From: Natronomonas moolapensis 8.8.11
GTDB lineage: Archaea; Halobacteriota; Halobacteria; Halobacteriales; Haloarculaceae
Direction: 5' to 3'
DNA: 64,000 nucleotides
Assembly: GCF_000591055.1 (NCBI RefSeq)
Contig: NC_020388.1
Span: 496,001 to 560,000, forward strand
Below the pieces are notes generated by a model. That model saw only the letters and a list, made by a program, of their open reading frames with translations, was not told where the DNA came from and did no database searches. Position 1 is the stretch's first letter; the number at the start of each line of letters is the position of its first letter. Below, piece after piece: positions 28,589-32,725 of the stretch. A program made the translations under genes and the position numbers.

Positions 28589-29655
28589 TACTGACGGCTA
28601 AACTTATTTGTGTATAGAGCTTGTTTTTACGGTATGGACTACTTGGAGAAGATCACTGTTGACGAACTCCAAGAGATTTTAGCCGAAGTTGATGAAAAGA
28701 AACCAGTTCAGAGAATTCTTGCCGGTATCGCCTACAAGGACGGTGTCGAGCAGCAGACAATTGCGGAGCGGCATGATGTCCATCCAAACACGGTTCGTAA
28801 CTGGCTGATCCGACTCGAACGGCTCGACTCAGAGCCGTTCGAGTCGGTCGTCTACGATGATCCTCGCCCCGGCCAATCACGCGAACTTGACGAAGCTGAC
28901 CACGACCAATTCATCGAAGCTCTCCACGATTCTCCCAAAGAAGTTGGACTTGATGCGCGTGCGTGGACGGTTCCGCTAGCCCAGCAGTATCTTGAAGATG
29001 AGTTCGATATTGAGTACTGCCGCCGTCATATCCGGCGATTGATGTCCGAGGCCGGGCTGTCCTGGAAGACAGCCCGGCCAGAGTACGTCAAAGCTGATGA
29101 ACGAGCTCAGGATGCGTTCCGCAAAGGCTTCAAAAAAAGACGGACGATCTGGACGACGACTACACAATCATAGCAATCGACCAGACACGCCAAGAGATCA
29201 CGACGGATCTTGTCCACGCGTGGTTTCCAGAAAAAACGCGCCCGACACTCCCGGTGTCGGGCGCGTGGGAGAGTCTCAAACTGCTGGGCGGTGTCACCGC
29301 CAGCGGTGACACCTTCTTTCTGAAGTGTGAAGACAACTTTACCGCTGACATCACGACGCGGTTACTGGACGCACTCCAGACCGAGTTCGGCGAGAAAATC
29401 TGTGTTGTCCTGGACAATGCCCCGTATTTCGCGGCGAACGATGTCCACGACTACGTTGAAGACACACCGATCGAACTGTGCCACCTTCCGCGGGGTTCAC
29501 CGGAGCTGAACCCCGCGGAAGGGTGCTGGCAGAAACTCAATCAGCGGCTTGGTAACCAACTTTTCGAAGAACTTGATGAACTGAGAGAAGCCGTCTTCGA
29601 TGCGCTTGCGTCTATAGACCCACCAAACATCTATAATTATCTCTGTCCGTGAGTA
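28589..29655 (+). mobile_element. IS630-family element nested in IS6
   Basis: About 1067 bp with short inverted ends tactgacgg (28589-28597) and ccgtgagta (29647-29655). TA dinucleotides flank it (28587-28588 and 29656-29657), the typical IS630/Tc1 target duplication. The element itself begins and ends in TA, so the edges could shift by two bases. Confidence 0.88.
28634..29652 (+). CDS. IS630-family transposase, -1 frameshift
   Basis: Two frames make one transposase of about 339 aa. The first (ATG 28634 to 29173) has the HTH region IAERHDVHPNTVRNWLIRLE and the linker up to FRKGFKK. A run of seven A (29132-29138) allows a -1 slip into the second frame. That frame reads DDYTIIAIDQTRQE (first Asp), CVVLDNAPYFAAND (second Asp) and GSPELNPAEGCWQKLNQRLG (Glu). 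Frameshifting at A-runs is known in IS630 elements. A stand-alone start for the second frame (29254) would miss the first Asp, so a frameshift is needed for activity. A simple mutation in the A-run is the alternative. Confidence 0.85.
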
Positions 29656-30114
29656 TAATTGGGTTCAGAAAGCAGATCTACAGCCTGAGTCTGGTCAAAA
29701 TCCGGATCACGTCGCCGTTGACGAGACGGTGATCCGGCTCAATGATGAACAATATTGGCTGTACGCGGCTGTCGATCCTGAAACAAACGAATTGCTATAC
29801 ACAACGCTTGAACCAACCACAAACAGCGTAATTGCTCACGCGTTCTTTGCTGAACTCCGCGAGAAACACGACGTAGAACACGCCGTGTTTCTCATCGATG
29901 GCTCGCACTCATTGAAGGACGCTTGCCGCCGTCACAGTCTCGATTTTAAATATGAAAAACATGGAAATCGGAATAGCGTCGAACGTGTCTTTCGAGAGAT
30001 AAAACGTAGAACTACCAGCTTCTCAAACTGCTTCAGCAACGCCGAAGCAGATACCGCCGACAATTGGCTTCGATCATTCGCCTTCGCATGGAATCAGCTT
30101 ATCTGAACACTACC

Positions 30115-32297: not shown

Positions 32298-32370
32298 ACC
32301 GACCGCTGCGCCCGGAGCATCATAGCCGTTGCGCTCGGCGACTCGACGATTTATAGAGATACAAGGAGAA

Positions 32371-32687
32371 TACTGGTGGCTTTAGCCACCAGATGAATCC
32401 GACAAAAGTTTATGTACAGACACAGTACGTATAATTGTGTGTGGGGAACTGGCAGTTGACTCGGTGTTTGCCACGGTTTCTAACCGGAATCAAAAAGTAA
32501 GCCGACCACGCCGACAGTCGTAAAACAATCAGGTAACTCGAAGCCCTTCAGCGGGTACGAGTAACGGCTTCGTGGCAGAGCCACTGGCTGACTGTCCAGC
32601 AAACCTGAGACTCCCAACGTTCAGGATTGACCTGCCCGGTCAACACCGGGTGGGAGGCCCGCGCTTTTAGGCGCGGGAGGATGTCAC
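32371..32687 (+). mobile_element. Non-coding IS200/IS605 derivative with possible omega-RNA
   Basis: The left end has the hairpin tggtggctttagccacca (32374-32391). The right end has a 7-bp-arm hairpin (cccgcgc 32658-32664 and gcgcggg 32671-32677), and then the tail aggatgtcac (32678-32687), which is typical of haloarchaeal tnpB elements. No tnpA or tnpB frame lies between. The 32500-32660 part can fold into several stem-loops (for example cggtcaacaccg around 32637) as the guide-RNA region upstream of a tnpB right end does. A TATA-like acgtataattg (32427-32437) could drive a transcript. It explains the otherwise gene-free 32298-32725 gap. Confidence 0.55.
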
Positions 32688-32725
32688 TACTCGCGAATCG
32701 TCTATTTTAGCGCGAGGAAAGACCC

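Follow-up and report, generated by a model that had tools for sequence, protein, structure and literature searches.

Transposase-free elements with IS605-type ends and omegaRNAs are both already known from haloarchaea. The former are the palindrome-associated elements (PATEs) of Haloquadratum walsbyi, which are multi-copy sequences without transposase genes or inverted terminal repeats, carrying near-terminal palindromes that resemble IS605-type transposons (Dyall-Smith et al. 2011, PMC3119063). The latter include sot0042 (RF02656), a Halobacterium sotRNA, now named an omegaRNA (PMC12558985). In descriptions so far, TnpB and its omegaRNA work in cis, each transposon being protected by the nuclease that it encodes. 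The sequence that TnpA favours for insertion doubles as the TAM of TnpB, the right flank is written into the omegaRNA as its guide, and sites that are empty or from which the element has been excised are cut by TnpB, upon which the element is copied back (PMC11870625, PMC10278001). In ISDra2, whose omegaRNA sits in the tnpB transcript in cis, a pseudoknot takes in nucleotides -6 to -2, just ahead of the guide (PMC10097598).

Here we compare these systems with a locus in a window of 64,000 nucleotides (the whole stretch of DNA analysed; positions 496,001 to 560,000 of contig NC_020388.1) from Natronomonas moolapensis 8.8.11, a haloarchaeal genome of 2.91 Mb in a single contig. Coordinates are window positions, and all features of the element are on the + strand. 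The original prediction, made from the letters alone, placed a tnpB-less IS200/IS605 derivative at 32371-32687 and proposed that its RNA could load a TnpB encoded elsewhere or act as a decoy. Some distance away, positions 28610-30106 hold open-frame fragments resembling split transposase genes, including a DDE-like follow-on to a helix-turn-helix protein (29254-29652) and another transposase-like fragment (29729-30106).

A gene-less PATE present in 20 copies

The element spans positions 32355-32687 (333 bp) and has no coding genes; as predicted, neither tnpA nor tnpB lies within it. Genome searching recovered 20 full-length copies, 11 at 97–100% identity (family A) and 9 at 86–88% (family B), which disposes of the concern, raised with the prediction itself, that no other element with these ends might exist. 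The families were built from genome searches because a repeat search on the element gave nothing; the region contained no pair of inverted repeats. Once oriented, all 20 copies start with TTATAGAGAT and finish with GGATGTCAC (shared right terminus GATGTCAC), and they are embedded in unrelated flanks. Because both ends are common to 20/20 full copies, which diverge on either side, the left boundary was revised from the predicted 32371 to 32355; the right boundary had been placed exactly.

Adjoining the left end is the insertion target TTAT (32351-32354), the expected TAM, which precedes AGAGAT in 20/20 genome copies. It is also found, again at the left end, beside those tnpB elements whose left end is the same and beside most relatives from other species. 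Both hairpin ends and the tail named in the prediction were recovered, the left-end hairpin (CTGGTGGC-TTTA-GCCACCAG) at 32373-32392 and the right-end hairpin (P5, CCCGCGC...GCGCGGG) at 32658-32677. The left stem is compensated (CTGCGG:CCGCAG) in tnpB-only elements with the same left end. The right hairpin is followed by AGGATGTCAC, with the last base at 32687 and the tail 3' of the hairpin reading GGAGGATGTCAC; the terminal GGAUGUCAC (32679-32687) comprises the transposon-encoded motif that forms one side of a pseudoknot (PK1, see below) and the TCAC cleavage end. The left end is ~86% like that of tnpB elements coding for 446-aa proteins, and the right end is 78–87% like those of tnpB and tnpA+tnpB elements. 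The folding z-score was -4.8, with 0/100 shuffles equally stable.

No target duplication was seen at the 20 genome copies, and the element does not meet the classical MITE criteria (terminal inverted repeats and target duplication). It does meet those for a PATE: there is no transposase or tnpB gene, the near-terminal palindromes are as in IS605-type elements, and it is mobile with a fixed target beside the left end and no target duplication (judged from 20 copies, with the empty site not shown). A search for an empty site via the neighbouring dCTP deaminase gene yielded only relatives with a different downstream gene. The element is a tnpA-less, tnpB-less IS200/IS605 derivative, i.e. a PATE, and the movement in trans that had been proposed for it is supported by its 20 copies and its lack of genes of its own.

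Sequence homology of the interior to a haloarchaeal omegaRNA

At the Rfam gathering threshold only a tRNA was found, and the omegaRNA was missed. With the threshold lowered to E-values, and with genome-wide and tnpB-linked controls, RF02656 (sot0042) matched positions 32531-32677 over all 174 model positions (38.5 bits, E = 1.3e-8; genome-wide E = 1.9e-8), as the haloarchaeal covariance-model search suggested with the prediction would have it; RF02657 gave no match to the element. Across the genome, tnpB-linked copies scored 63–68 bits and all 20 short copies 24–42 bits. The gathering cut-off is 88 bits, and membership of RF02656 at that threshold is not met. As judged from these matches, the interior is a homologous relative of RF02656, not to be filed as a member, and the proposal that some 250 bp correspond to a structured 3' omegaRNA gains support from the full-model match and from the genome-wide ranking of all 20 copies.

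The reverse comparison agreed with this. A profile HMM of the element found the 3' ends of tnpB elements on the same strand and with the same right end (best E = 2.4e-12), with matches that begin no earlier than model position 85 and reach 251. At all 30 top-scoring RF02656 loci fetched from other haloarchaea, a tnpB gene (~430 aa when intact) is at least partly present and ends within the RNA. An omegaRNA in cis with an overlapping tnpB is not what we see in the element, and the TnpB genes near a few related loci are chance neighbours only. The likeness to the sot0042 omegaRNA (PMC12558985) extends to hairpins P2 and P3, the pseudoknot from the second-hairpin loop to the end, the stem TCCCA..GGGA, the right-end hairpin, the strand, and the 3' end. 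Unlike it, the element's RNA lies outside any tnpB gene, scores below the family's cut-off at 38.5 bits, and has an extra 5' domain; the long stem that sot0042 has 3' of P3 is replaced in the element by P1, the 5' strand of which precedes P2.

Evidence from covariation for a selected fold

We aligned 49 tnpB-less sequences with MAFFT, blind to structure, named the helices P1-P5 and two pseudoknots, and counted pairs. Overall, 90.6% of cells were paired, with changes on both sides in 213 cells versus 26–43 in controls with slid partners, and covariation was 0.318 versus 0.04–0.08. P1 joins GACAGUC (32513-32519) to GACUGUC (32590-32596; 92.7% paired, double changes in 4 pairs) and encloses two hairpins, P2 (ACUCG..CGAGU, 32536-32562; 87.3%, double changes in 5 pairs) and P3 (GGCUU-CGUGGCA-GAGCC, 32566-32582; 96.7%, double changes in 4/5 pairs), the second hairpin of the omegaRNA. 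P4 (CUCCCA...UGGGAG, 32611-32656) was 82.9% paired.

The P3 loop (UGGCA, 32573-32577; UGGC[A/G] in the alignment) pairs with the terminal [U/C]GUCA (32682-32686) in PK1, which was 97.6% paired, with the last pair being A-U in 35 sequences and G-C in 12. In PK2, the CC of AAACC (32604-32605) meets the GG at 32679-32680, in GGAGG, and the variable pair (C-G 33, G-C 13, U-G 3) was unpaired in none. PK1 is kept in 20/20 copies of this genome and in 31/31 tnpB-linked RNAs checked, in some of them as UGGCC:GGUCA. Its 3' side at 32682-32686 also occupies -6 to -2, so that, as in the ISDra2 omegaRNA (PMC10097598), the nucleotides just before the guide position pair with an upstream loop. The defining omegaRNA features of a pseudoknot from the second-hairpin loop to the element's 3' end, together with a right-end hairpin (PMC12558985), are both present.

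Ranking of column pairs by G-statistics was dominated by shared ancestry, and a tree-based count was used instead, with events counted by parsimony on a FastTree tree and P4 and P5 left out. By this count, double compensatory changes had arisen independently 32 times over 28 core pairs; sliding the partners by 1–6 columns gave 0–7, and 200 permutations of partners averaged 2.0, with none above 10. On this comparative evidence, the predicted fold is under selection within the tnpB-less clade.

A further helix within 32539-32572, CGAAGCC:GGCUUCG (7 bp), competes with the P3 stem GGCUU:GAGCC for a strand. It was 87% paired, with double changes in 3 pairs, and takes the form CGCUACC:GGUAGCG in many relatives; both alternatives covary, and the 7-bp helix may be a second conformation and a possible switch.

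Predicted promoter, transcript, and 5' domain

The predicted omegaRNA-like transcript body (32437-32687, start inferred) coincides with a block conserved in tnpB-less loci of other species. A TTYAH motif occurs at exactly -29 from the start of this conserved RNA in 21/43 elements, and within -36 to -24 in 25/43, against a background of 3.6% per window. This is the archaeal TATA spacing, and in the element itself the TATA-like box TTTATG (32409-32414) would serve as the promoter and predicts a start near 32436-32437, for which there are no transcript data. The internal acgtataattg (32427-32437), originally proposed as TATA-like, is probably not the promoter, given that it is TTTATG that has the conserved -29 spacing. 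TTTT near the element end was found in only 3/49 sequences; T-runs being so rare there, nothing obvious would stop transcription before the flank, which makes read-through into a guide plausible. By its place relative to the omegaRNA end, we infer the guide to be the right flank at 32688-32703, which differs in every copy.

The 5' domain (32437-32512) is closed in the alignment by P0 (GUGUGUGG:CCACGC; one pair covarying U-A/C-G and 100% paired), and it and its homologues hold CUGGCAGUUGACUCGGUGUUUGCC, the most conserved stretch of the lineage. The element HMM found no counterpart of this domain in tnpB omegaRNAs, where matches begin at model position 85 at the earliest. One frame is open in family B, and a hidden protein was considered and rejected: no conserved open frame exists among 54 sequences, the best one being open in only 10/54 (about 6% expected).

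A tnpB-less lineage across haloarchaea

Relatives of the interior were found in about 50 of the 392 genomes of the order that were searched, many of the weaker matches listed being IS605 right ends only. Almost all related loci that we fetched had no TnpB within 1.2–1.5 kb, with a few TnpB matches outside the element. When 84,980 bacterial and archaeal species genomes were searched for a 24-base core motif from the 5' domain, it turned up in 67 stretches, of which one is labelled uncultured archaeon and the others bear haloarchaeal record titles (Haloquadratum included); the motif was absent from the viral contigs and phages searched. Natronorubrum bangense and Haladaptatus halobius are among the named carriers. 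The interior also matched 15 haloarchaeal plasmids, mostly unannotated. In a tree of the shared 3' region, the 49 tnpB-less RNAs formed one clade (UFBoot 99), apart from all 37 other RNAs, which points to one old lineage and not to repeated recent deletions.

In keeping with a borrowed TnpB, RF02656 RNAs above the cut-off were present in 40/51 element-bearing genomes versus 22/51 sampled genomes without the element (Fisher p = 2.4e-4), a test confounded by overall transposon load; 5/51 element-bearing genomes had no RF02656 match at E 1e-15.

Like the H. walsbyi PATEs, the element is multi-copy, transposase-free, and bounded by near-terminal palindromes. Unlike them, described as core-deleted and degenerate (PMC3119063), it has an interior that resembles a selected omegaRNA, a promoter-like box of its own, and a lineage spread over many genera. 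In the open-access literature, the only literature searched, we found no report of PATEs carrying a selected omegaRNA.

Potential partners, proposed mechanism, and alternatives

In the N. moolapensis genome there are four Y1 tnpA genes, and the TnpB C-terminal domain is matched 22 times. Elements with a tnpB and this right end, which the prediction had suggested looking for, do exist in this genome, and the left end is common too: five intact tnpB-only elements of the 446-aa type (one of 425 aa) and one interrupted copy carry it (about 84–86% over 55 bases), and most of these have the right end as well. Two tnpA+tnpB elements have only the right end in common with the element, and at none of the four tnpA loci (0/4) is the left end similar. 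The resident TnpBs are of the TCAA-ending 446-aa type; the genome yielded no intact example of the closer, TCAC-ending type, and the TnpBs that are present may not recognise the element's RNA, with its extra 5' domain and different P1.

The simplest reading of the element is that it brings its own guide and borrows TnpB and TnpA, because loss of the nuclease has left the target TTAT, the motif at the end, and the core of the RNA in place. We consider it reasonably probable that it is a non-autonomous IS200/IS605 element (PATE) with a selected omegaRNA of its own, under its own promoter, and with TnpA and TnpB supplied in trans. To judge from the ends and the copy number, a Y1 TnpA encoded elsewhere would move the element via its end hairpins into TTAT. 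An RNA starting near 32437 would pass the right end into the flank, adopt the fold of a TnpB omegaRNA, including the pseudoknot between loop and end, and be loaded by a sot0042-clade TnpB from other elements, with whatever lies beyond 32687 as its guide. Excision, or a chromosome copy left unoccupied, would restore TTAT next to the flank, which the borrowed TnpB would cut, and recombination would then copy the element back, so that both TnpA and TnpB would be parasitised. What this scheme builds on is observed: the signature of mobility, homology to an omegaRNA, a fold and pseudoknot under selection within the tnpB-less clade, and a promoter-like box at fixed spacing; transcription, TnpB loading, targeting of the flank, cutting, and retention are inferred only, with no transcript, binding, or cleavage data.

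A decoy or regulatory role, also part of the original prediction, seems unlikely to us and is not excluded. The RNA would then load TnpB to titrate or inactivate it, limiting cutting and homing by autonomous elements, or otherwise regulate TnpB or TnpA; such binding would need the same conserved structure and pseudoknot, the conserved 5' domain without a counterpart in tnpB omegaRNAs could be read in this way, and a decoy function has been raised for circular omegaRNAs (PMC12558985). However, the 3' end is open to the flank without a conserved terminator and always stands at TTAT, as a guide function needs, and a decoy protecting the host would have no need for mobility at high copy number, although neither point is decisive.

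Core deletion of IS605-type transposons is a known origin of some PATEs (PMC3119063), and the element could likewise derive from a tnpB element by simple deletion, with its end hairpins serving for movement and its 3' RNA a functionless remnant. Its ends are indeed common to tnpB elements, and its 20 copies are mutually close and young. This sits poorly with a tnpB-less clade that is old and wide, with 32 independent double changes in internal helices away from the ends, and with a promoter-like box at fixed spacing, and we hold such a passive origin to be improbable and already strongly disfavoured. That the stretch might be a degraded tnpB, the outcome that would have counted against the prediction, is borne out only in that the 3' part descends from a tnpB 3' end; an ancient tnpB-less lineage with a selected RNA fold is no decaying pseudogene.

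Hairpins in single-stranded DNA take part in IS200/IS605 transposition, as do short guide sequences that pair with cleavage sites (IS608, ISDra2), and the conserved fold could in principle act as DNA in TnpA binding or in guiding the cleavage site. This is very doubtful, as P1, P2, P3, and PK1 lie 90–175 bases inside the right end and match tnpB-linked omegaRNA, where this stretch is known to be expressed as RNA (PMC12558985), the loop has its partner at -6 to -2, as in the pseudoknot of the ISDra2 omegaRNA (PMC10097598), and the promoter-like box is upstream of the fold.

Implications and further tnpB-less families

The comparison provides evidence that the guide RNA evolves apart from the nuclease in old gene-less lineages. 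Stand-alone omegaRNA loci, with the guide RNA away from the nuclease gene, have reportedly been described for IscB by Altae-Tran and colleagues in 2021. Unlike the element, those concern IscB and not TnpB and are not known to be a mobile, ancient multi-species lineage with covariation. We lean, by a small measure, towards the view that haloarchaea host several independent, long-lived, gene-less mobile lineages amounting to free-living guide-RNA genes: every copy would make its own omegaRNA, TnpB and TnpA from other elements would be a shared homing machine, and some lineages would have added a 5' RNA domain. Whether a guide RNA can act selfishly by itself becomes directly testable in haloarchaea, where many chromosome copies should reward homing. 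The lineages are also a natural parallel to the guide/nuclease split in CRISPR-Cas12, offer a set of omegaRNAs that nature has minimised and given a promoter of their own, and give a reason for the persistence of TnpB where most surrounding copies lack it.

Two further tnpB-less families exist, and for this reason tnpB was probably lost, with the omegaRNA retained, at least three times. The second family is widespread (loci L211-L226, seven genomes), multi-copy in several genera, with about 68–81 bits on RF02656, a UGGCA:UGUCA pseudoknot, and a different 5' domain (AUAUCGGGAUUCCCCGAUUCC..GGAACUCGGGGUGCAG); no TnpB was found upstream in the 16 loci checked, except for a short TnpB tail of an unrelated clade in L226. 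The third consists of three copies in the same genome (G000:C1 1680066, 2326523, and 2416094; L159, L160, and L162), nested among tnpB-linked omegaRNAs, with the end GGAGGUCAC and a compensated PK1 (UGGCC or UGGUC:GGUCA).

In two genomes, a tnpB-less omegaRNA element (L214, L076) lies just upstream of a tnpB of another clade (L044 type), in the same direction. Related RNAs at G000:C1 355082 and 2351065 (L023 and L022) have a very different left end (CAGGCGC..CCCACGA..TCGTGGGATACGCGC), and across species the same RNA core is found on at least three left-end types.
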